DNA of 64,000 nt. Source: Corynebacterium sphenisci DSM 44792. Lineage in GTDB: Bacteria; Actinomycetota; Actinomycetes; Mycobacteriales; Mycobacteriaceae. The notes below the pieces were generated by a model. That model searched no databases. It saw only the letters and a list, made by a program, of their open reading frames with translations, and was not told where the DNA came from. Positions 48,090 to 64,000 of the stretch are shown piece after piece. The DNA is taken from positions 248,001 to 312,000 of the forward strand of contig NZ_CP009248.1 of the NCBI RefSeq assembly GCF_001941505.1, given 5' to 3'. Position 1 is the stretch's first letter, and the number at the start of each line of letters is the position of its first letter. A program made the position numbers and the translations under genes.

Positions 48090-52055
<3,966 letters not shown>

Positions 52056-52082
52056 TCCGCCCCACCCGGCGGAGCCCCCCCC

Positions 52083-52121
52083 GGGCCCGGTCGCCGCGCA
52101 TCCCGCGCGGCGGCCGGGCCC
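52083..52121 (+). terminator. Terminator hairpin after rpoC
   Basis: A 17-bp stem (52083-52099 with 52105-52121, one G-U pair) and a 5-base loop. No T tract. Confidence 0.7.
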
Positions 52122-52184
52122 GCGGCGCACCCCGGGTGCGGGCCGCGCCCGGGGGAGTCGCCGCCGCCGCGCCGCGCGGTGCCC

Positions 52185-52190
52185 TAGGGT
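52185..52190 (+). promoter_or_regulatory. -10 box at the head of the vWA/tubulin-like cluster
   Basis: TAGGGT. The start would be near 52197, giving a 40-base leader with AGAGGAGG before GTG 52239. An ATG at 52198 fits the leaderless spacing but opens the wrong frame. Confidence 0.5.
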
Positions 52191-52238
52191 TGGCCCCATG
52201 ACCCCGTTCGGGGGCGGCAGAAGAGGAGGCGCGGCACG

Positions 52239-52745
52239 GTGGCGGAGCATCAGGGACATGCGGAGGCGGGGGCCTACCGGGGCCCCGGCCCCGGCGGCTA
52301 CGGCGGCGGCGCGGCCGCCCCGGCCGGCGGATTCGGCGCCCCCGCCGGGGGCTTCGCCGCCGCCGGGCCCGGCGCCGGCGCCCCGCTGGCCGCCGACCCC
52401 GGCCCCCTCCGGCTGCGCACCGGGCCCTGGCCCTGGGTGCTCGCGGCCACCGCGGCCGCCGTGGCCGGGCTCGCCCTGGCCATCGCCGCGCCGCTGACCG
52501 CCGCGCCCACCGACCCGGCCTGGCCGGCGCTGGCGCTGCCCGGCTGGGCGCTCGGCGGGATCGGCACCTTCGTGCTGCTCGGCGCCCATCTGGTGGCCGA
52601 CACCCGCCGCCAGGCGGCCGGGCCCTACGTCTCCACCCCCGCGCAGACCCTGCTCTACCGGGTGGCCGCCGCCGGCGGGCTGCTCACCGTGGCGGCCACC
52701 GCGATCGAGATCGCGCTGTGGGTCTCCAAGACGGGGGTGCTCTGA
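52239..52745 (+). CDS. Three-helix membrane protein heading the cluster
   Basis: 168 residues from GTG 52239 (AGGAGG 9 bases upstream). Residues 1-62 are a Gly/Ala/Pro-rich, non-helical arm (YGGGAAAPAGGFGAPAGGF), then three helices: WPWVLAATAAAVAGLALAIA, LPGWALGGIGTFVLLGAHLV and VAAAGGLLTVAATAIEIALW. No domain is recognised. Its stop overlaps the vWA start as TGATG, so the two are made together. A membrane partner of the vWA protein is a reasonable inference. Confidence 0.75.
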   Translation: MAEHQGHAEAGAYRGPGPGGYGGGAAAPAGGFGAPAGGFAAAGPGAGAPLAADPGPLRLRTGPWPWVLAATAAAVAGLALAIAAPLTAAPTDPAWPALALPGWALGGIGTFVLLGAHLVADTRRQAAGPYVSTPAQTLLYRVAAAGGLLTVAATAIEIALWVSKTGVL

Positions 52746-55342
52746 TGGCCGCCGGGCGCCCGCCCGCCCGGGCGCGGCGGATGCCGGCGCTGCTCGCCGC
52801 GGCGCTGCTCGCCCTCGCCGCGGCCTGGCCGGGGGCCGGCCCGGCCGCCGCCCAGGAGCCCGCCGCGCCCGCCCCGGAGCGCGCCGCCGCCGGGGACCAG
52901 GGCCATGCCGCGGTCCGCGATTTCGCCGGCTGCATCGCCGGCGCCTCGGCGGCCTCGGTGCTCATCGTCATGGACGAGTCGGCCTCCCTGGTCGGCTTCG
53001 ACGATGAGCCGGCCACCGACCCGGAGGCGCTGCGGGTGGCCGCGGCGCGGGACTTCGCCGGCCGGATGGCCCGGTACGCGCAGCGCTCCGGGGCGGAGAT
53101 CGACGTGGCCCTGGCCGGTTTCGCCGACGGCTACGTCCGCCGCGGGGATTTCACCCCGCTCGGCGTCGACGGCGGCGGCAGCACCCTCGACGAGGAGATC
53201 GGGCGCTTCGCCGACCGCGCCGACGGGTCCTACACGAATTACGAGGAGGGCCTCGACGGGGCCTTCGCCGAATTCGAGGGGATCGGCGACGAGTGCCGGG
53301 CGGTGCTGTTCTTCTCCGACGGCAAGCCCACCTCCTCCAGCTGGGGGTCGCCGATGGACCCGGTGTGCGCCGCCGGCGGCCCGGTGGCCCGGCTGCGCGC
53401 CGGCGGGGTGCGCCTGTTCACCATCGGCCTCGGCGCGGAGACCGACGCCGACCTGCGCCGGATCTCTGAGGGGGAGTGCTCGGCGCAGCCGGCGAACGGC
53501 GCCCATCTGCCGGCCGCCGATGCCGCCGGGCTCTTCGCCGCCTTCCGGGCGATGATCCCCGCCGGGGCGGGCCGCTCCCGGGAGGCCGTGCCCATCGACG
53601 AGCCCTTCGCCTTCACCCTCGACGACACCGTCGCCCCGGTGGAGCTGTCCGCCCAACCCGACCGGCGCACCCCCGCCGGGGCCCTGGTGCCCACCCTCAC
53701 CCCGCCCGGCGGGGAGCCGGTGGACCTCGTCGAGGGCGATACCGCCATCGGCGGGGCGCGGGTGACCACCCGGGCCAACCCGGCGCTGCCCGGGATGGTG
53801 GACGTGAGCATGGAGCGCGCCGGGGAGGGCTTCGCCGGGCGCTGGGCCTTCGGCTACCGCCGGGCCGCCGGGGACGCCGGCGCGGAGAGCTACCGGGTGT
53901 CCCTGTCGATCCTGCCCGGGCTGCGCATCGACCTGCCCGGGGCCCCGGGGCGGGGGCCGCTGAGCCTGTCCACCGGGGACCGGCTGCCGGTGCGCCTGGC
54001 CGGCCCGGACGGCGCCGCCCGGGCCTTCGCCGGGGACGCCCGGCTGCGCGCCGAGCTCCTCCCCGCCGACGGCTCCGCCCCGGTGCCGCTGGCCGCGGAC
54101 CTGGACATCCGCTCCGGGACGGCGGAGGTGCCCCTCGACGCGGTGACCGGCCGCCTGGCGGGCACCCTGCGGATGGCGGCGACCATCACCACCGCCGCCG
54201 CCGGGGACGCCCCCGGCACCGAGCTGAGCCCCCTGACCTACGCGCGGGAGGCCTCCATCGCCGCGCCGACCGCCCCGAAGCTGCCCGGGTCGGTGACCCT
54301 GGAGCTGCGCGGCGGCGCCGGCGCCGCCGAGATCCCGGTCACCGGTCCGGGGAAGGCCTGGGTGGCCCCCGGCGAGTTCGCCGTCGGCGATGCCGTGGTC
54401 TCCTACGCCGCCGACCACGACGCCGCGGACCCCCTGGAGCTCGCCCCCGGCGAGACCGGGGTGATCCGCCTCGAGGCCGAGGTCGCCGACCCGGTGGACC
54501 GCACCTTCGACGCCGTCGCGCTGCCGGTGGGCGTCGCCGACGCCGAATCCGGGGCGGAGGACACCGTGGCGGTGCCGGTGCGCGGCTCGATGAGCGCCCC
54601 GGTGGACGCCGCCGCCTTCGGCCTGGCCCTGGTCGCGGCGCTGCTGCTGGCCCTGCTCATCCCGGCCGCGGTGGTGTACCTGATGAAGTACCTGGTCGGC
54701 CGGATCCCGGCCCGGCCCGGGGTGCTCGCGCTGCGGCTGCCGGTGCGCCTGGACGGCGGGGTGCTGCTGCGCGCGGACCGCGGCGGCGAATTCGACGTGG
54801 ACCATGACGAGGTGCTCGCCGCCCCGCGCACCACCTCCCGGGGCCGGTCCATCGATCTCGCCGGGATCCGGGTGGCGGTGCGGGTGGGCTGGAACCCGGT
54901 CACCCCGCCGCGGGCGGTGGTCGCCGCCGCCCCCTCCATCTCCGATGACGGCCGCCGCCGCGGCGGCGCCGCGGAACTGCCCCCGGCGGTGCAGGACCGC
55001 TGGTTCGTCCTCGGCGGGGGCGGGGACCCGGATGCCGCGACCGTGGTGCTGGCCCTGGATGAGCGGGTGACCCGGGCCCGGCTCGCCGGGATCGTCGCCG
55101 CGGTGCGCCGCGACGGCCCGGCCCGGGTGCGCGCCCTGGCCGAGGAGGCCGGCGCCCCGCCGCCGGGCGGGCCCGCCGCGCCGGAGCACCCGGCGGCCCC
55201 CGGCGGCCCGGTGCCCGGCGGCGGCCCCGGGGAGGCCGGCGGCGGCTCCTTCGGCGGCCCGGACGGGCCGGTGTTCGGCGACGGCGGCTCCCCCTACCGC
55301 GGGGGATTCGGGCCCTTCGGCGACGGCCCCCGCGATGGCTGA
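52745..55342 (+). CDS. von Willebrand factor A domain membrane protein
   Basis: 865 residues. Residues 1-37 are a signal peptide ending PAAAQEP. The vWA domain (about 65-275) starts ASVLIVMDESASLVGF: D77-x-S79-x-S81 is an intact MIDAS metal site; YTNYEEGLDGAFAEF and VLFFSDGKPTSS supply the Thr and Asp positions. A beta-rich region (about 290-610) follows, then one membrane helix (about 622-648, AFGLALVAALLLALLIPAAV), a small cytosolic beta domain and a Gly/Pro-rich tail. So the metal-binding head faces outward and a tail reaches the cytosol, where the tubulin-like protein would be. The ligand is unknown. Confidence 0.85.
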   Translation: MAAGRPPARARRMPALLAAALLALAAAWPGAGPAAAQEPAAPAPERAAAGDQGHAAVRDFAGCIAGASAASVLIVMDESASLVGFDDEPATDPEALRVAAARDFAGRMARYAQRSGAEIDVALAGFADGYVRRGDFTPLGVDGGGSTLDEEIGRFADRADGSYTNYEEGLDGAFAEFEGIGDECRAVLFFSDGKPTSSSWGSPMDPVCAAGGPVARLRAGGVRLFTIGLGAETDADLRRISEGECSAQPANGAHLPAADAAGLFAAFRAMIPAGAGRSREAVPIDEPFAFTLDDTVAPVELSAQPDRRTPAGALVPTLTPPGGEPVDLVEGDTAIGGARVTTRANPALPGMVDVSMERAGEGFAGRWAFGYRRAAGDAGAESYRVSLSILPGLRIDLPGAPGRGPLSLSTGDRLPVRLAGPDGAARAFAGDARLRAELLPADGSAPVPLAADLDIRSGTAEVPLDAVTGRLAGTLRMAATITTAAAGDAPGTELSPLTYAREASIAAPTAPKLPGSVTLELRGGAGAAEIPVTGPGKAWVAPGEFAVGDAVVSYAADHDAADPLELAPGETGVIRLEAEVADPVDRTFDAVALPVGVADAESGAEDTVAVPVRGSMSAPVDAAAFGLALVAALLLALLIPAAVVYLMKYLVGRIPARPGVLALRLPVRLDGGVLLRADRGGEFDVDHDEVLAAPRTTSRGRSIDLAGIRVAVRVGWNPVTPPRAVVAAAPSISDDGRRRGGAAELPPAVQDRWFVLGGGGDPDAATVVLALDERVTRARLAGIVAAVRRDGPARVRALAEEAGAPPPGGPAAPEHPAAPGGPVPGGGPGEAGGGSFGGPDGPVFGDGGSPYRGGFGPFGDGPRDG

Positions 55343-55363
55343 GCCGGCCCCGCCCCCGCCGAC

Positions 55364-55384
55364 GGCCCCCCGCACGCGGGGGCC
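55364..55384 (+). terminator. Hairpin between the vWA and tubulin-like genes
   Basis: GGCCCCC (55364-55370) pairs with GGGGGCC (55378-55384), 7-base loop, no T tract. A GATACT stretch (55395-55400) just after it may be a -10 box for the next gene. Confidence 0.45.
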
Positions 55385-55426
55385 GGGCGTGGGCGATACT
55401 GGATCACGGTGAAGGGAAGGATTGTC

Positions 55427-58400
55427 ATGCAGAAGTACCTCGTGGTCGGCTGCGGCGGCTCCGGCGCGAAAACCCAGGCCTACATGATCGACCAGCTCCT
55501 GGCGCATCTGCGCCGGGTCGACCCGGAGCGCGCCGAACTGCCCGCGGCATGGCAGTTCGTCACCATCGACGTCCCCCTGGAACCGGAGCCGGGCCCCGAC
55601 GGGCTGGCCAACGTCGCCCAGGCCGGGGGCCGGTACATCCCCATCGGCAACCGGCTGCACTACAACCGCTTCGACGCCGGGCTCAGCCACCAGCTGGCCC
55701 GCAGCGGGGCGCTCGGCGAAATCGCCACCTGGGCGCCCCGGGACCCGGAGCACCTGAACACCCCGATCAGCGACGGCGCCGGGCAGTACCGGGCGATCGG
55801 CCGGATGCTCACCATCCAGCACCTGGAGACCATCCACGAGGGCCTGCGCGCCGCCATCGACCGGCTCAACCTGGTGGAGACCACCATCGAGCTCAACGAG
55901 CTCAACCACCGGATCACCGGCCGGCACTCCGACTCCGCCGACGATCAGCCGGTGGTGCTCATCATCGGCTCCATGGCCGGCGGCTCCGGGGCCTCCATGG
56001 CCTTCGACGTCGCCCGCCTGCTCTCCGCGATGCCGCTGGTCAAACCCGCGCACACCGCGGTGTTCATGCTCACCCCGGAGGTCTTCGAGGCGATTCCCGA
56101 GGACCGGATGCCCGGGGCGTGGGCGAATTCGCTGGCCATGTTCGGCGAGGCCTTCGCCGCGCAGACCGGCGCCGGCGCCGGCCACGACGTGGCCCTGATG
56201 CGCGCCATGGGCCTGGCCGGGGCCCCGCAGGACACCACCTTCGGCCGGCTGTTCCCGATCGGCGCCCGGATGGGCGGCACCCGCTCCCGCTTCGGCGACG
56301 GCACCCCCACCGCGGTGTTCCGCGGCCTGGCCCGGGCGCTGGCCGCCCTGATGAGCTCGGAGAAGGCCTCCGGCGACTTCAAGTCCTACACCCTGGCCAA
56401 CACCGGCTCCCGGGTCGGCGACCGGTCCATCCTGGGCTGGGCCTCCCCGGAGCAGGTGCGCTGGGATGACGTGCCCTGGGGCTCCATGGGCTACGCCCAG
56501 CTGTCCATGGGCCGGGACCGCTACGCCGAGTACGCCGCGCAGCGGCTGGCCCGCACCGCCTTCGACCGGCTGCTCGCCGGGCACGTCGACCCCGCCGAGG
56601 AATCCACCGGCAAGGAGCAGCTGGACCGGCGGCTGCGGGAGCGGCTGCCCGGGACGCTGCACCGGATGGGGCTGCCCCGGGATCTCGCCGCCGGCTTCGG
56701 CCCCGAGCAGGTCGGCGCCTGGCTGGGCTGGCTCTTCGGCAACCACTCCGCCGCCGCCGGGGACGCCGCCGCGGCCTGGTTGCGCGGGCAGCTGCCGCCG
56801 GGGGAGGGGATGCGCTCGGCGGACTGGGCCGCGCTGGTGCGCACCCGGATCCGCGATGCCGGGGCGCCGCTGGCCGAGCGCCTCGGCGAGGAGGCCTACG
56901 CCATCGCCCGCGATTTCGCCGACCACTTCACCGACGCGGTGATCGGCGAGGTGGAGGCCGCCATCGCCGCCCTGGGCCTGCCCTACGCCGAGGAGCTCAT
57001 CGACCGGGTCGGCGAGCTCATCCAGGAGCGGCTCGCCCCGGCGCTGCGCGCCCACGTCGACGGGCTGCGCGGCCGGGACCCGGTGGCCGCCCCGCCGCAG
57101 CTGGAATCGCTGCTGCAGCCGCTCGGCGGCCGCGGCACGGTGAAGTCCGCGGAGCAGATCGCCGACCAGGTCGCCGAGGTCTACCGCGCCCAGTTCGCCG
57201 CCCACCACCTCGGCCTGGTGGCCGCCCGGCTGCAGCCGGCGCTGGCCGACTTCCGCGCCGAGGTGCTGGTCCGGCTGCGCCGGGAGCTGGAGTCGGCGCA
57301 CCGGGACCTGGAGCGCGCCGGGCAGATCCGCGATGCCGCGGTGCACCTCGCCGACGTGGCCACCGAGGAGCCCACCGCCTGGCCCGCGGACGCCGATGAG
57401 CGGATCGACGAGCGCTTCGCCGGCTCCGCCAACGAGATCGTGATCACCGACGTGGATCGCTTCGCCGCGGACTACGAGGCCCATCTGCTGGCCACCATGG
57501 CCGCCGGCGACCCGCAGCTGCGCGCCGCCGACCAGGCCTCCGCGGCGGCGGCCGCCGAGATCCTCGCCGGGCGCTGGGACACCCAGGGCGGGTCCCCCGC
57601 CCCGGCGGACACGCTGTGCCCCCCGACCACCGGGGAGGCCGGCGGCAACCGGGCCGGCTGGGTGTCCCGGCACCTCGCCGCCGCCCCCCGCGGCGGCGCC
57701 GACCGGGAGGCCCGCCCGGCGGTCTTCCGGGTGCGGCTGCGCCCCGCGGAGCTGATGGCGCGCACCCGGGCCTGGATCGCCCGGCCCGCGAAGCCCTTCA
57801 GCGACTTCATCGACGTGGACCTGCGCACCTACCTGTCCCCGGCGGCGGCGGAGAGCCGCGCCGAGCACGCCGAGCGGGTGGCCCGGCTGCGCTCCGCCTT
57901 CACCCGGGCGCTGCGCCTGGCCCGGCCACTGGCCGCGGTGAGCACCGAGATGCTCGGCCTGGTCTACGGCGGCCAGGGGGCGGAGGAGTACCACTTCAAC
58001 TTCTCCGAGATCCCCTTCGAGGGCACCGGGGCGAAGGAGGAGCTGGAGGCCATCCTGGTCGGCGACCGGTACCGCGACGCCGCCACCCTGGGCACCTTCG
58101 AGGCGGCCTGCACCACCGACCGGCGGGTGTTCGCGATCGACGTGTTCGGCTCCTACCCGAACTACTCCCCGGTGGTGTTCAGCTCCCTGTTCCCGCATAT
58201 CGCCGAGGATTGGGCGGCCCGCGCCGGGGCGGTGCAGGGCTTCTGGCAGCTGCGCCGGGCCCGGCCGCTGCCGGCGGCGCTGCCGCTCACCGAGGAGGAG
58301 CGCCGGGCGATGGTCGGCGGCTGGCTGATCGGCGTGGTCACCGGGCGGATCCACATCGCCGACCGGGGCCGGGCGGAGGCCTCGGCGCATATCCACGACG

Positions 58401-59065
58401 ACCGGGCGCGCACCTGGGTGCCCTTCCCGCACCCGATGCTCACCCCGCCGAAGGACTTCCGCACCGCCCTGGACTGGATGCCCGCGGTGATCGAGTCGGT
58501 GCTGCTGGCCTACGCCATGGTGCAGACCGCCCCGCCCGGCGGGGCGCCGGGGGATTCGCTGCGCCCCTACCGGCTGCTGCGCGGGCTCTACGACGACGGC
58601 GACCAGGGCCCCACCACCGGGGCGGTGCAGCATCCGGCGACCCGGGCGCTGGCGCAGTGGCTGGCCGAGGGCGACGACCCCGCCCACGGCGGCACCCGGA
58701 TCGGCGCGGCCGGGGCCGCCGGGATCGGCGAGCGCCGCCGGCACCTGGCGGAGGCGCTGGCCGGGGCCCGGGAGAAGGCGGCGCTGTTCCTGCCCCGCCG
58801 CGGCTCCGCGGCGCTGCCCGGCGCCGCCGCGGAGGACCGGCCCTTCGCCCACGTCACCGACCGTCGGGCGGCCTCCCGGATGCCGCTGTACCGGGATCTC
58901 GCCGCCGACGTCGACGAGGTCGCCGCGGAGCTGCTCGGCCGCCTCGACGAGGCCCAGGCGCTGGCGGAGAACCCCGCCGAGCCGGCGGCGGCGCCGTGGA
59001 CCAGCCCCGCCGATGACCTGGACACCGCACCGCAGCTGCCGGATCTCGGCGGGGGCGTCATCTGA
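55427..59065 (+). CDS. Tubulin/FtsZ-superfamily-like protein, 1212 aa
   Basis: 1212 residues, about three times the size of FtsZ. The N terminus MQKYLVVGCGGSGAKTQAYM has a Gly-rich nucleotide loop after strand 1 (residues 8-13). Residues 176-190, VVLIIGSMAGGSGAS, match the tubulin signature (GGGTGSG-like, here AGGSGAS) after a hydrophobic strand. I therefore place it in the Tubulin_2-like group, probably a GTP-binding protein. The remaining 900 residues are largely helical, with a charged helical stretch near 590-680, and have no other fold I recognise; there is no membrane helix. ATG 55427 is chosen over an in-frame GTG at 55409 because GGGAAGG lies 7 bases upstream. The next gene overlaps by one base. 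Confidence 0.75.
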   Translation: MQKYLVVGCGGSGAKTQAYMIDQLLAHLRRVDPERAELPAAWQFVTIDVPLEPEPGPDGLANVAQAGGRYIPIGNRLHYNRFDAGLSHQLARSGALGEIATWAPRDPEHLNTPISDGAGQYRAIGRMLTIQHLETIHEGLRAAIDRLNLVETTIELNELNHRITGRHSDSADDQPVVLIIGSMAGGSGASMAFDVARLLSAMPLVKPAHTAVFMLTPEVFEAIPEDRMPGAWANSLAMFGEAFAAQTGAGAGHDVALMRAMGLAGAPQDTTFGRLFPIGARMGGTRSRFGDGTPTAVFRGLARALAALMSSEKASGDFKSYTLANTGSRVGDRSILGWASPEQVRWDDVPWGSMGYAQLSMGRDRYAEYAAQRLARTAFDRLLAGHVDPAEESTGKEQLDRRLRERLPGTLHRMGLPRDLAAGFGPEQVGAWLGWLFGNHSAAAGDAAAAWLRGQLPPGEGMRSADWAALVRTRIRDAGAPLAERLGEEAYAIARDFADHFTDAVIGEVEAAIAALGLPYAEELIDRVGELIQERLAPALRAHVDGLRGRDPVAAPPQLESLLQPLGGRGTVKSAEQIADQVAEVYRAQFAAHHLGLVAARLQPALADFRAEVLVRLRRELESAHRDLERAGQIRDAAVHLADVATEEPTAWPADADERIDERFAGSANEIVITDVDRFAADYEAHLLATMAAGDPQLRAADQASAAAAAEILAGRWDTQGGSPAPADTLCPPTTGEAGGNRAGWVSRHLAAAPRGGADREARPAVFRVRLRPAELMARTRAWIARPAKPFSDFIDVDLRTYLSPAAAESRAEHAERVARLRSAFTRALRLARPLAAVSTEMLGLVYGGQGAEEYHFNFSEIPFEGTGAKEELEAILVGDRYRDAATLGTFEAACTTDRRVFAIDVFGSYPNYSPVVFSSLFPHIAEDWAARAGAVQGFWQLRRARPLPAALPLTEEERRAMVGGWLIGVVTGRIHIADRGRAEASAHIHDDRARTWVPFPHPMLTPPKDFRTALDWMPAVIESVLLAYAMVQTAPPGGAPGDSLRPYRLLRGLYDDGDQGPTTGAVQHPATRALAQWLAEGDDPAHGGTRIGAAGAAGIGERRRHLAEALAGAREKAALFLPRRGSAALPGAAAEDRPFAHVTDRRAASRMPLYRDLAADVDEVAAELLGRLDEAQALAENPAEPAAAPWTSPADDLDTAPQLPDLGGGVI

Positions 59066-61887
59066 TGGCGGACACGGTGATCCTGCTCGGCGCCGGGCCC
59101 GGGCCGGAGGCGATCCGCGGCAACCTCGTCGACCTGGCCGCCCTCGGCCTGGTGCACCGGGTGCTGTGGGCGCCGGCCACCCCGGCGGCGGCCCGCGCCG
59201 GCCGGCTCACCGAGATCACCGCCGGGCACCCGGTGACCCGCGACCTCGGGGTGGCCGACGCGCTGCGCGGGGCCGCCGGGCGGGTGCTGCTCATCGCCCT
59301 GGACGAGCCGGACGCGGCCGGGTCCACCCTGGACGCGGCGGCGACCGCGGCGTGGACCGACGCGGTGGACCGGGTCGGCCCGGCCGCCGCGCACCGGGTG
59401 CACCTGGTGCTGCCCCGGCTGCCGCTGCCCGCCGCGGCGCCGGCGGCGATGCCCGGCTGGACGATGCTGGCGCTGTCCCCGGAGGACTCCGACGCCCCCG
59501 GCGACGCGGTGCTGGAGCAGCACCGCGCCGACGGCCCGGCGGCGCTGGCCCGCTACGCCGCCCCGGCGGTGGCCGGGCTGGCCGGGCTGTGGGCGGACGC
59601 GGCCGGGGTCCCGCTGCTGGACGGCCCCGATGGCCCGGTCGGCGGCGGCGGGCCCGGCCGGCTGCGCCTGGTGCGGGTGCACCACCGCCGGATCGACGTC
59701 GCCGACCTGGAGGACCGGCTGCGCCGCCGCGCCCTGGACGTGCGCGCGGCCACCCCGCAGCCGCGGCTGCCCGGTGGCGCCCGGGTGGTCGCCGGCGGCG
59801 ATGACGGGGACCTGGTGGCCCGCGCCGCCGGGGCCTTCGCGGACCGGGCCCGGGCCCGCCTGGTGCCCGCCCCCGCCCCGCCCCCGCCGGCCCCGCCCGC
59901 CCGGATCGGGGCGGTGCGGGCGCTGCGCCGCTTCCTCGCCTTCTTCGCCCGCTGCGTGCTCGGCACCCCCCGCACCTGGTACGCCGCCCAGGTGCACGTG
60001 GTCCAGTCCACCCTGGCCCGGGCGGTGCAGGCCGCGCTCTACGGGGCCGACTCCGATGTGGAGGTGGTCTGCGGCGATCACTCCGGGATCCGCCGCCGGG
60101 AGGGCATCGCCGAACTCACCGGGGCCTCCGCGGCGCTGCGCGAGCGGCTGGACCGCGACCCGGCCGCGCCGGTGGGCCCGCCCCCGGCGCTGGCCACCCT
60201 ATGGCGTGGCTGGACCGGGGTGGCCCTGGGCCTCGTCGACGGCGCGGACCGGGCCGAGGCCCCGGCGGCGCGGGACCACTACGGCAACCCGATGGTGCTC
60301 AGCCGGCCCGCGCTGGCCGTCCCTGACGTCGCCGACTCCTTCGACGGGGCGCATCCCACGCTCACCGCGCTGCTCGGCGACTCCCTGGGCGGCACCCGGA
60401 TCGCCCCCTTCGACCCCTACGGGGCCCGCGCCTACGGGGAGGCCCTGGATCTGGCGGTGCGGCAGACCACGGACCGCTCCGTGGCCCGGCTGCGGGAGGA
60501 CTTCCGCACCTGGCGGGCCGCCCGCTCGGCGAGCTTCGCCTGGCGCACCGGGGAGGCGATCGCCGGCTTCGTCGAGGAGTCCCGGGACCGGGCCGCCGCC
60601 GCCGGGGAGCGGCTGCACCGGATCCGCGCCGAACGCGCCGGGCTCGGGGAGCCGGACCCGGCCGCCGGGGACCGGCTGGTGCGCACCCTGCGCCGGCTCA
60701 CCCTCGGCTGGGCGCTGCTGCAGGCGGCGCTGATCTACCTCATCGTCTGCGGCATCGCCCCGGGGGCGCGGCTGGCCGACTGGGGCCCGGCCCTGTCCTG
60801 GGGGCGCGGGCTGCTCGCCATCGCGGTGACCACCCTGGCCGCCCTCGGCGCCGGGTTCGCGGTGTTCGCCCGCGCCCAGCGCGGGGTCCTCGAACGCGCC
60901 GCCGCCGCCCGCCGGATCGCCGCGGAGGAGGAGGCCGCGGTCCGCGACCTGGTCTCCGCGGTGGCCCATGTGGAGCGCGCCGGGCTGGCCTACGGCCAGC
61001 ACCAGGCGTGGTCGGCGATCCTCGGCCGGGCGCTCGCCGCGCCCTTCGGCGCCGACCCCGCCCGGGTGCGCGGCACCCGGATCCCGGAGGCCGGGATGCC
61101 CCGGGCCGCGGTGATCGCCGAGGCGGTGGCCGAGGAGGCGGAGCTGGGCCGGGCGGTGTCCGCGCTGCGGGACCGGCTCTTCCCCCCGGCCTGGGCGGAC
61201 GCCGCCGTGGACCGGCTGCTCACCGCCGCCCGGGAGGCCGCGGAGCGGTCCGGGGACCGGGTGCCGGAGCCCGGGCAGCTCTACGGCCAGGCCGGGGCGG
61301 GCAGCGCCTCCCCCCTGGACCGGCTCGCCCGGGGCGCGGTCGCCGCGGACCTGCCCCGCGGCGGGGCCGCGGAGGCGGCCTGGGCCCCGGCGATCGCCGC
61401 CCTCGCCGACTCCGCGGCGGCCGGGCCGCTGCTCGCCCGGCTGCGCAGCTGGGAGGACGGGGAGGAGCGGATCCGGGGCAGCGCGGACCTGCTCGCCGGG
61501 CTGGACGGCGGCGCCGCCGGCGCGGCGCCCCGGTTCACCCCGGCGGCGCTGGCCGCGCAAGGCGTCAACCGGGGCGGCACCGAGGTCGACCCCGCGGTCG
61601 GCGGCGTGTTCCGCGGCCCCGGCGAGGGCGCCGCGGGCACCCTGGGGCGCACCCTCACCCTGGTGCACTACGGCCGGGTCGCCGACGCGGCCTGGTTGGC
61701 CGAGGCGGCCGCCGCCGAGCCCGCCGACCCGGCCGCGGCGGAGTCGGCGCGGGCGGTGCTCGAGCGGCCCTGGCCGCCGGAGCCGCCCGGCTCCGCCGCA
61801 CCGGGGGCGCCGCCGGGCGGGGGCCGGCACCGCCGCCCCGGCGGATCCGGCCCGGCGCTGCCGGAGTTCGGCGAGGATCTGATGTAG
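59065..61887 (+). CDS. Large two-helix membrane protein of the cluster
   Basis: 940 residues, coupled to the tubulin-like gene by TGATG. The N terminus MADTVILLGAGPGPEAIRGN looks like a Rossmann-type strand and Gly-rich loop, perhaps a second degenerate nucleotide fold. A hydrophilic region to about 540 includes a Pro-rich linker (PAPAPPPPAPPARIG). Two membrane helices follow (about 545-566, LGWALLQAALIYLIVCGIA, and 578-600, LLAIAVTTLAALGAGFAVFA), then a helical cytosolic domain and a Pro/Gly-rich tail. Both ends are therefore on the same side. No family is recognised; it may tether the tubulin-like protein to the membrane. Confidence 0.75.
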   Translation: MADTVILLGAGPGPEAIRGNLVDLAALGLVHRVLWAPATPAAARAGRLTEITAGHPVTRDLGVADALRGAAGRVLLIALDEPDAAGSTLDAAATAAWTDAVDRVGPAAAHRVHLVLPRLPLPAAAPAAMPGWTMLALSPEDSDAPGDAVLEQHRADGPAALARYAAPAVAGLAGLWADAAGVPLLDGPDGPVGGGGPGRLRLVRVHHRRIDVADLEDRLRRRALDVRAATPQPRLPGGARVVAGGDDGDLVARAAGAFADRARARLVPAPAPPPPAPPARIGAVRALRRFLAFFARCVLGTPRTWYAAQVHVVQSTLARAVQAALYGADSDVEVVCGDHSGIRRREGIAELTGASAALRERLDRDPAAPVGPPPALATLWRGWTGVALGLVDGADRAEAPAARDHYGNPMVLSRPALAVPDVADSFDGAHPTLTALLGDSLGGTRIAPFDPYGARAYGEALDLAVRQTTDRSVARLREDFRTWRAARSASFAWRTGEAIAGFVEESRDRAAAAGERLHRIRAERAGLGEPDPAAGDRLVRTLRRLTLGWALLQAALIYLIVCGIAPGARLADWGPALSWGRGLLAIAVTTLAALGAGFAVFARAQRGVLERAAAARRIAAEEEAAVRDLVSAVAHVERAGLAYGQHQAWSAILGRALAAPFGADPARVRGTRIPEAGMPRAAVIAEAVAEEAELGRAVSALRDRLFPPAWADAAVDRLLTAAREAAERSGDRVPEPGQLYGQAGAGSASPLDRLARGAVAADLPRGGAAEAAWAPAIAALADSAAAGPLLARLRSWEDGEERIRGSADLLAGLDGGAAGAAPRFTPAALAAQGVNRGGTEVDPAVGGVFRGPGEGAAGTLGRTLTLVHYGRVADAAWLAEAAAAEPADPAAAESARAVLERPWPPEPPGSAAPGAPPGGGRHRRPGGSGPALPEFGEDLM

Positions 61888-61930
61888 GCCGCCGCCGGGT
61901 GCCACCCGGCGGCGCGGAAGGGAGAGGCGG

Positions 61931-64000
61931 ATGCCGATGGGCGAGGCCGAGGGGCTGACCCGCGAGATCGCGCAGGTGCCGGAGTACATCCTGCGCGCCA
62001 TCATCCGGGAGGGGGAGCCGGACGAGGGCACCATCCGGCGGATGCTGCCCACCCGGCACCGGCACCTCGCCGCGGAAATCCGCCGTCGCCTGGTCGGCGG
62101 GCCCGCCGAGCCCGCGGCCGGCGCCGCGGACCCGGCGGGGGGGCCCGAGCCCGATCCCGCCCCGGCCCCCGCGCCGGCGGGGTTCACCGCCCGCCGCCCG
62201 GCGGAGCCGCCCGCGGAGGCCGCCGCGGAGCCGCCGGCCGGGGAGGCCGCCCCGGCGCCCGCGGCGGCGGCCCCGGACCCGGCCCGGCCGGTGAACCCGG
62301 TGGTCGCCGAATTCGACGAGCTCACCGCCGGCGGCGCCGCCGATGCCGCGGTGATGGACCCGGCCGATGCGCTGCCCGCCACCGGGGAGCACTTCGCCCA
62401 GTACCTCGGCGGGGCCGCCGAGCCGATCGGCGAGGTGCGGGTGCGCCGCCGCCCGGTCGCCGGCGGCGCCCGGATCGAGCTGACCTGGGCGGACCCGCCC
62501 GGGGTGGCGGAGCCGGTGCGGATCTACCGGGTGATCGCCGCCGACGGGGAGGCCCGGCCGAACCCGGACGAGGGCCCGCTGGCGCTGACCACCGTCGGCC
62601 ACGGCTACGTGGAGGCGGAGCGCGAGGGGGTGGCCTTCCGGCACTACCAGGTGTGGCTCAACGCCGGGGCGGACCTGCGCGCCGCCCTCGACGCGCAGCC
62701 CCGGCTGGTCGGCGAGGACATCGCGGTGGCCCCGGTGCCCGGGTTCGTCACCCGGGTCTCCCAGGGCGTGGTGGAGGGCACCTGGGCGACGGTGCCCGGC
62801 TACGCCGGGATCCGGGTCTACGCCGCCCCCGCCGCCGACCCCGGCCCCCTGGAGGTGCCCGGCAACCTGCTCGCCGAGGGCGTCACCGCCCGCGGTTTCG
62901 AGCACCGGGCCCCGGTGCGCGGGGCGGCGATGCGCTACCGGCTGGTGCCCGAGGTGGAGTTCCGGGGCCGCCGGGTGGTCGCCGCCGCCGGCGGCCGGGT
63001 CGCCGAGGTGCACGTGCCCGCGGAGCTCGCCGCCGTGGAGCTGCAGCTGTGCGAGCGCTTCACCGACGCCGGCGGGGACGACCGGATCGCGCTGAGCTGG
63101 TACGCCCCGGCCGCCGGGGTGGTGCGGATCTACCTCGGGGACCGCTCGCCCGCCCCGGACCTGTCCTTCGAGCAGGTGCCGGAGGAGGCCCTGGCCCGGG
63201 ATCCGGCCCTGGCCCCGGCGAACCTGGTGGGCAGCTACGCCCCGGGCCCGGAGGGCGCCCAGCGCGATGAGCGGGTGATGTGGCCCGCCGGCCTCGACGA
63301 GGTGCACCTCACCCCGGTGACCGTGGTCGACGGCCGGGCCGCGGTGGGGGTGACCCGGGTGCTGCAGCGGGTCGCCCCGATCCGGGACGCCGCACTCGCC
63401 GAACGCGGCGCCGGGCAGCTCATCACCTTCGCCTGGCCGGCGGGGGCGGCGATGGTGAAGGTGGAGACCGCGCCCCTGGGCGCCGCGGACGCCGCCGACC
63501 GGGTCTTCCGCGGGGAGCTCGACGAGGCCGGCTACCGCCGGGCCGGCGGGATCCGGCTGCGCCTGGACCCCTTCGGGGCCACGGTGACGCTCACCCCGCG
63601 CAGCATCTACGCCGGGCGGGAGACCGCCGCGGAGCCCACCGTGCTGGCCTACCGGGGGCTGCGCACCTACCGGTGGCGGCTGGAGCCGGACCCGCGGGGG
63701 CTGCTGCTGCGGCTCTGGTGCTCCGGCGCCGAGGACCGCAATCCGCCCCGGTTCCAGCTGGTGCACCACCCCACCCGGCTGCCGCTGTGCCCGGAGGACG
63801 CCGCCGAGGCCGGGGCGGGGGTGCTGCGCACCACCCCGGTGGAGGCCGGCACCGGCCGGGCACTGGCCGAGCCGGGGATCGTGCTCGCCCCGGACGCCCT
63901 CGCCGGCGGCTACGACGCCGCCGCCGCGGGCCCCGCCTGGCTGGTCGCCGCGGGGGAGCTTTCCCGGCTGCGGCCCGGCCAGTGGCTGCGCCCCTTCATC
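61931..64000 (+). CDS. Fibronectin-III-like repeat protein (C-terminal part outside window)
   Basis: Open to the right edge: 690 codons from ATG 61931 (GAAGGGAGAGG upstream; a second in-frame ATG is at 61937). Residues 1-60 are a charged helical head (TREIAQVPEYILRAIIREGE), then a Pro/Ala-rich linker to about 130, then repeated beta modules that resemble FN3 by their Trp-strand and following hydrophobic strand: RIELTWADPPG...RIYRV, RIALSWYAPAAG...RIYLG and LITFAWPAGAA. No signal peptide or helix is seen, so the visible part is probably cytosolic, which is unusual for FN3-type repeats. It begins 43 bases after the preceding stop. Confidence 0.75.
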   Translation, partial: MPMGEAEGLTREIAQVPEYILRAIIREGEPDEGTIRRMLPTRHRHLAAEIRRRLVGGPAEPAAGAADPAGGPEPDPAPAPAPAGFTARRPAEPPAEAAAEPPAGEAAPAPAAAAPDPARPVNPVVAEFDELTAGGAADAAVMDPADALPATGEHFAQYLGGAAEPIGEVRVRRRPVAGGARIELTWADPPGVAEPVRIYRVIAADGEARPNPDEGPLALTTVGHGYVEAEREGVAFRHYQVWLNAGADLRAALDAQPRLVGEDIAVAPVPGFVTRVSQGVVEGTWATVPGYAGIRVYAAPAADPGPLEVPGNLLAEGVTARGFEHRAPVRGAAMRYRLVPEVEFRGRRVVAAAGGRVAEVHVPAELAAVELQLCERFTDAGGDDRIALSWYAPAAGVVRIYLGDRSPAPDLSFEQVPEEALARDPALAPANLVGSYAPGPEGAQRDERVMWPAGLDEVHLTPVTVVDGRAAVGVTRVLQRVAPIRDAALAERGAGQLITFAWPAGAAMVKVETAPLGAADAADRVFRGELDEAGYRRAGGIRLRLDPFGATVTLTPRSIYAGRETAAEPTVLAYRGLRTYRWRLEPDPRGLLLRLWCSGAEDRNPPRFQLVHHPTRLPLCPEDAAEAGAGVLRTTPVEAGTGRALAEPGIVLAPDALAGGYDAAAAGPAWLVAAGELSRLRPGQWLRPFI

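Follow-up and report, generated by a model that had tools for sequence, protein, structure and literature searches.

The stretch of DNA analysed here, referred to as the window, comprises 64,000 nucleotides of the Corynebacterium sphenisci DSM 44792 genome (G000:C1:248001-312000, on a single contig of 2,594,799 bases). It raises the question of why genes for an exported von Willebrand factor A (vWA) protein, a giant tubulin-like protein, membrane proteins and a repeat protein should stand together downstream of rpoC. Our analysis indicated that the cluster consists of eight linked genes on the plus strand, five of which start inside the window. We consider it more probable than any alternative, at roughly 60%, that this cluster represents, in Corynebacterium, the tubulin-type GAP1-N2/DO-GTPase systems of actinobacteria, that it works by envelope sensing, a GTPase relay and tubulin assembly, and that its role is accessory, with defence somewhat favoured. 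The features are as follows.

52185..52230, plus strand: leader, with TAGGGT at 52185 and a Shine-Dalgarno sequence, AGGAGG, at 52224-52229 ahead of gene 1 (read directly).
52239..52745, plus strand: gene 1, small membrane protein, 168 residues (sequence; relatives at the same place).
52718..55342, plus strand: gene 2, exported vWA protein, 874 residues (signal-like N-terminus, PF00092, metal-ion-dependent adhesion site or MIDAS).
55427..59065, plus strand: gene 3, tubulin-superfamily protein, Tubulin_2/FtsZl1, 1212 residues (PF13809 profile, AlphaFold2 (AF2) model).
59065..61887, plus strand: gene 4, membrane protein, 940 residues (transmembrane hairpin, AF2 model).
61931..64138, plus strand: gene 5, FN3-like repeat protein, 735 residues (last 138 bases beyond the window edge).
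64138-66516 (extrapolated; L002:13139-15517), plus strand: gene 6, GAP1, 792 residues (PF20013 and PF20014).
66513-67502 (extrapolated; L002:15514-16503), plus strand: gene 7, TerF-like vWA protein, 329 residues (DCSAS; PF10138 in relatives).
67499-68497 (extrapolated; L002:16500-17498), plus strand: gene 8, DO-GTPase, 332 residues (GARASGKS, DVAGED, SKFD; PF19993).

The initial annotation described a cluster of five same-strand genes. These open reading frames (ORFs) are real, but the set was incomplete, as the genes for GAP1, a TerF-like vWA protein and a DO-GTPase lie just beyond position 64000, where they continue with overlaps of 1 to 4 bases. Because GAP1 and DO-GTPase genes belong to the set, switching probably depends on a second GTPase and not on the tubulin by itself. 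The rpsL gene (G000:C1:318354) is found approximately 1.9 kb beyond gene 8, and therefore all eight genes lie between rpoC and rpsL.

The suspected tubulin fold of the 1212-residue protein was borne out both by the Tubulin_2 profile PF13809, which it matched with 137.3 bits (cut-off 27), and by comparison of its AF2 model with known folds, which identified the tubulin superfamily. The T1 loop, GCGGSG, was invariant in all 83 aligned sequences and the invariant positions of T4 were kept in 84 of 84, from which GTP binding is predicted. The model comprises an N domain, a mainly helical insert at approximately 363-840 and a C domain at approximately 840-1034, limits that we infer. It thus indicates, as a new result, that the tubulin C-terminal domain is present and split by a mainly helical insert of some 480 residues. 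Searches of the PDB by sequence (phmmer, with the tubulin, FN3 and TerF-like vWA proteins) and by profile (with the tubulin, gene 4, TerF-like vWA, DO-GTPase and FN3 families) returned no credible relative.

Whether this protein forms a dynamic filament is less clear, and the GTP-driven polymer of the initial annotation is unproven. It may instead be a nucleotide-dependent switch or scaffold that binds GTP and hydrolyses little of it, a possibility that we take seriously while regarding it as the less probable one. In its favour, T1 and T4 are invariant yet the alignment has no invariant Asp or Glu at residues 340-360, the part leading up to and including strand S7 in which T7 should lie, and it would suit a C domain split by so large an insert. 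On the other hand, the placement of T7 is uncertain, acidic residues follow S7 (D364 in 81 and E368 in 83 of 84 sequences), and the fold is otherwise complete. That the protein is a housekeeping cell-division FtsZ or a divisome paralog is highly improbable, since only the superfamily fold speaks for it: a separate FtsZ_C match is located elsewhere in the genome (G000:C1:1674735-1675019), and 137 of the 201 Corynebacterium genomes have no Tubulin_2 match.

The genes beyond the window edge supply the GTPase part of the system. Gene 6 matched PF20013 (GAP1-N2; E 8.2e-14, 52.3 bits) and PF20014 (GAP1-M; E 1.7e-5, 25.4 bits), both above the cut-off of 24, and no GAP1-C match was listed in its Pfam scan. 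Gene 8 matched PF19993 (DO-GTPase2) with E 2.4e-5, and its 24.6 bits fall slightly short of the cut-off of 27; the same profile was matched by 13 of 17 members of its family (E <= 0.01), two of which, from another subfamily, scored 32.8 and 41.9 bits. The GKS, DVAGED (a Walker B motif with Glu) and KFD motifs were invariant in all 17 aligned members. Of the zinc-ribbon cysteines of DO-GTPases, one CPxC is left in mycobacterial relatives, whereas the corynebacterial sequences from the subfamily of the window have lost them. A second GAP1-N2 locus was observed in genome G156 (C33, L173:8069-14336), with an FN3 protein (fn3, E 6.9e-6) and a distant DO-GTPase relative and without a tubulin match; this genome has the tubulin cluster as well, and the second locus is a further theme of the system.

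The outward-facing vWA head proposed initially agrees with what we observed for gene 2. The predicted protein has a signal-like N-terminus, a vWA domain at 81-251 with the MIDAS motif DESAS, and one transmembrane segment (635-653) ahead of its tail, suggesting that it is exported and membrane-anchored with its C-terminus probably in the cytosol. Its match to PF00092 (E 9.2e-4, 19.9 bits) is under the curated cut-off of 23.8, and DxSxS was present within the first 250 residues of 25 of 27 vWA ORFs, including that of the window. Gene 2 can be classed as a membrane-bound vWA protein, and its beta-rich domain was judged from sequence alone. The gene 1 product is rich in Gly, Pro and Ala at its N-terminus and has roughly three hydrophobic segments (66-84, 97-115 and 138-160); in Corynebacterium and in a number of mycobacteria, relatives of this gene are found at the corresponding position.

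Genes 5 and 7 were assigned through their families. Gene 5 itself had no Pfam match, fn3 was matched by 5 of 20 family members (best E 4.9e-4), and the N-terminal region is conserved; HRDC was absent from the nine Pfam families that these 20 members matched. PF10138 (vWA-TerF-like) was matched by 3 of 16 members of the gene 7 family (best E 1.4e-4) and not by the window's own protein, which has the MIDAS motif DCSAS; in the alignment, 10 of 16 rows have [DN]xSxS at this position, a count that excludes off-site matches in L008 and L009.

If these proteins form one system, their genes should remain together, and this was found to be the case. In a collection of 84,980 species genomes we detected 33 loci, 11 of which were cut by contig ends. 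In all 22 loci that were long enough, the six larger genes (vWA, tubulin, membrane protein, FN3, GAP1 and GTPase) followed in the same order, as the initial annotation had expected of its cluster in relatives. BLAST recovered the full set of eight genes at 11 of the 33 loci, and the genes missed on long-enough contigs were the short and divergent genes 1 and 7.

Within Corynebacterium, a genus that is not multicellular, we found Tubulin_2 in 64 of 201 genomes and GAP1-N2 in exactly the same 64, a distribution that is new here (6 of the 201 genomes had completeness below 90% or contamination above 5%). GAP1 lay 7.3-8.7 kb downstream of the tubulin gene on the same strand in 60 of the 64 carriers and on a different contig in the other four, and each carrier had a single Tubulin_2 match. 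The genome of the laboratory species C. glutamicum has matches to both families, and therefore the role of these bacterial tubulins is directly testable. A separate observation concerns loci L199 and L200 (genomes G306 and G277), where other actinobacterial Tubulin_2 proteins (2e-39 and 2e-34) stand beside a distant vWA relative in genomes without a GAP1-N2 match; these are perhaps a simpler tubulin-vWA pair.

To what extent the cluster follows the history of its hosts was examined with an RpoC tree that included 40 of the 64 carriers (41 with the window) and 40 of the 137 non-carriers, with rpoC coordinates taken from among the matches listed. For the comparison with the tubulin we used 40 genomes, namely 39 relatives and the window; G034, with an RpoC ORF of only 595 residues, was left out. 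Patristic distances for tubulin and RpoC correlated poorly (r 0.15), a value no higher than those reached in 2000 permutations (maximum 0.20). The RpoC topology was rejected by the tubulin alignment with a log-likelihood difference of 4456, which is also new here. The tubulins form two deep subfamilies, A (19 sequences, including that of the window) and B (22), which are scattered over the species, and the RpoC topology was rejected inside each of them as well (differences of 443 for A and 434 for B). The approximately unbiased test was performed with 2000 resamplings for the whole set, a number that the program warns is small, and with 10,000 within subfamilies. In eight whole loci, seven from subfamily B and that of G120, the six larger genes are in order and gene 7 went undetected.

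Presence and absence also differ between close species. In carrier G101 and non-carrier G098, which have nearly identical RpoC sequences, 20.7 kb including the cluster in one genome corresponded to 178 bases in the other, with boundaries to be read in light of a flanking gene that on one side is just 71% identical; no tRNA was found in the two G101 boundary stretches scanned. Because the tubulin and RpoC trees conflict and the whole cluster differs between G101 and G098, the cluster looks like an exchangeable accessory unit. The initial annotation took base composition as an argument against very recent import. This holds for the window, where third-position GC in the cluster is 96-98% and gives no clear sign of recent import, but the history of the tubulin across the genus differs from that of the species.

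The sites of insertion vary. Adjacency to rpoC was considered as a conserved feature and rejected: among 40 carriers related to the window, the tubulin gene lay within approximately 20 kb of rpoC in 7, on a different contig in 12 and far from it in 21. In five comparisons of carriers with non-carriers, the DNA behind rpoC showed no similarity past rpoC itself. The cluster was between rpoC and rpsL in 7 of 12 carriers, from both subfamilies, these 12 being among 17 genomes that were partly picked for closeness to rpoC. The rpoC-rpsL interval, measured between profile matches, ranges from about 1.5 to 33 kb among the genomes listed and looks like an insertion hotspot. In G113 (C11, L168:1175-9929), type I-E Cas1e, Cas7e, Cas8e and Cas3e are encoded between rpoC and the tubulin cluster, a point that we count in favour of the reading preferred here.

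These results are consistent with a mechanism in which the outward vWA protein of gene 2, together with the small membrane protein of gene 1, would monitor the envelope. A trigger would then be passed by the FN3-repeat protein and GAP1 to the DO-GTPase, whose switch would license assembly of the nucleotide-bound tubulin at the membrane, perhaps with gene 4 as a membrane-tethered partner. As the effector, the membrane-attached tubulin assembly would seal or remodel the cell, or kill it.

The same proteins could also form an envelope-remodelling or surface machine, accessory and niche-dependent, in which tubulin assembly drives remodelling of membrane or envelope, vesicle formation or display of a vWA adhesin. 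This reading is a substantial competitor, to which we nevertheless give the smaller share of belief. An exported vWA protein with an intact MIDAS, several membrane proteins and a constant gene set without variable effectors all suit it, and membrane remodelling is what Makarova and Koonin predicted for the FtsZl1 family in the part of their paper on which we draw (PMC2875224). A tubulin tree that conflicts with the species, and presence or absence in a close species pair, would be unusual for a structural machine, although surface loci can also be exchanged. It is mainly for this exchange pattern that defence is favoured over remodelling: a patchy, exchanged cluster present once per genome fits accessory defence somewhat better than housekeeping. 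Distribution and tree conflict provide evidence for an accessory, defence-like life style.

Several observations weigh against the sensing and defence system that we prefer. The main point against defence is the constancy of the gene set, which lacks the variable effectors expected of conflict systems. PADLOC, applied to the eight proteins, gave no convincing match and one chance-level ZorF (E 0.09), and therefore we do not class the cluster among the known defence systems. The FN3 protein is not specially fast-evolving, since its rate of divergence is much like that of GAP1 and of the TerF-like vWA protein. Four intervals were sampled (10 of the 37 ORFs listed), and one of them contained the Cas neighbour; of six proteins scanned in the three other intervals, five matched enzyme families and one had no Pfam match. 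Across the class, coupling is loose: among 148 genomes, Tubulin_2 was found in 8, GAP1-N2 in 10 and both in 2, that of the window and G342, the latter with the two on different contigs. At seven other tubulin loci of the class, BLAST, which may miss diverged partners, detected a vWA relative in two and a distant GTPase relative in one.

The case for exchange also has its counterweights. Close relatives share the cluster vertically (the window and G079; G123 and G188; G070, G035 and G113), and because tubulin and RpoC agree among them, inheritance appears to be vertical over short times. Exchange of the whole set as a block is deduced from gene order, because the tubulin tree was the only one built for the cluster. 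Differential loss of old paralogs is a possible alternative, against which the single Tubulin_2 match in each carrier speaks. Finally, among the matches listed from the open-licence literature, we found no experiments on Tubulin_2/FtsZl1 proteins or the GTPase system around them.

Gene 4 may hold a further part of the answer. Its product has an N-terminal alpha/beta domain, a helical stretch with a transmembrane hairpin (547-565 and 583-601) and a C-terminal alpha/beta part, and one AF2 model compared by VIA-align suggests that this could be another tubulin fold, degenerate and interrupted by the inserted hairpin. T1-like glycines occur in only 33 and 34 of 55 sequences, and the stretch of the alignment that was read contains no glycine-rich T4 loop; in view of these T1 and T4 regions, we do not file gene 4 as a tubulin, and at best it would be a pseudo-tubulin. 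Sequence homology between gene 4 and tubulin was tried and rejected, as hhalign gave a probability below 1% each time, first with the family profiles and then in five comparisons with enlarged sets of 55 and 84 sequences. Pfam scans of 27 gene 4 relatives included no tubulin among the matches listed (25 of 31 families), and Foldseek searches of the PDB and viral libraries gave nothing at E <= 0.001 and mostly long-helix proteins. In the 148 genomes of the class, a gene 4 profile found the window itself and two weak, short matches.

A tentative proposal, to which we assign somewhat less than an even chance, is that gene 4 encodes a nucleotide-free tubulin-fold subunit whose helical insert with the transmembrane hairpin interrupts the fold near the same point as in gene 3. 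The two proteins would then be a hetero-tubulin pair, one GTP-binding and cytosolic and the other built into the membrane, switched by the separate DO-GTPase/GAP1 relay and exchanged between species as a unit. If true, such a membrane-embedded pseudo-tubulin partner would be a new architecture for the tubulin superfamily.

Two observations concern the edges of the cluster. The TAGGGT at 52185 could, from its letters, serve as a -10 element of the TAnnnT type; a scan of 51950-52800 for the sigma-70 consensus found no promoter-like site. The gap between gene 8 and rpsL (L002:17499-19354, window coordinates 68498-70353) contains overlapping ORFs of 443 and 471 codons on the minus strand. NCBIfam gave no match for any of the eight cluster proteins.

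How does the locus compare with systems already described? The initial annotation did not recognise the partners of the vWA and tubulin genes. Most of them are described by Kaur, Burroughs, Iyer and Aravind (eLife 2020, PMC7159879), the one paper on GAP1-N2 among the literature matches listed; three are unnamed in the portion of that paper available to us. In the actinobacterial tubulin theme, as given there, the tubulin is single and its C-terminal domain helical, and it is accompanied by an HRDC-FNIII protein and by a vWA protein that is bound to the membrane and includes a beta-rich domain. The GAP1-N2 systems are reported there to be associated with a multicellular habit and mutually exclusive with VMAP systems. 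In common with that account, our locus has a DO-GTPase with a Walker B Glu, a GAP1-N2 and GAP1-M protein, one Tubulin_2 protein that continues into an alpha-helical part, an exported vWA protein bound to the membrane and, as a weaker likeness, a protein of FN3 repeats whose N-terminal region is conserved. It differs from what these sections report in that its GTPase lacks the N-terminal zinc ribbons called usual there, HRDC and GAP1-C were undetected, the host is not multicellular, and three constant genes (the small membrane protein, the TerF-like vWA protein and the 940-residue membrane protein) are unnamed for the actinobacterial version.

The link to the FtsZ-like family of Makarova and Koonin (Biol Direct 2010), made by the initial annotation, was upheld by the Tubulin_2/FtsZl1 match and the vWA partner. 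As far as the excerpts of that paper extend (PMC2875224), the FtsZl1 family shares with our locus an N-terminal FtsZ domain, a long helical middle and partners of the vWA and GTPase kinds; its context table includes cgR_2627, a vWA protein of C. glutamicum mentioned by a reviewer. In the same excerpts T6-H7 is unidentified and the C-terminal part lacks similarity to FtsZ or tubulin, whereas our model suggests a C domain split by an insert; actinobacterial FtsZl1 is described as evolving vertically, whereas here the tubulin tree conflicts strongly with RpoC in Corynebacterium. Tubulin_2 proteins are separated from the FtsZ/tubulin family in the accessible part of another report (PMC9871819). 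Unlike CetZ, TubZ, tubulin and FtsZ, to which its identity is 10-12% (top matches), the gene 3 protein has 1212 residues and a large insertion, and its operon also encodes vWA and GAP1 proteins and a second GTPase. Thus, to the Tubulin_2/FtsZl1 family predicted in 2010 and the GTPase system placed around it in 2020, as these partly available sources present them, our locus adds an eight-gene set in Corynebacterium.

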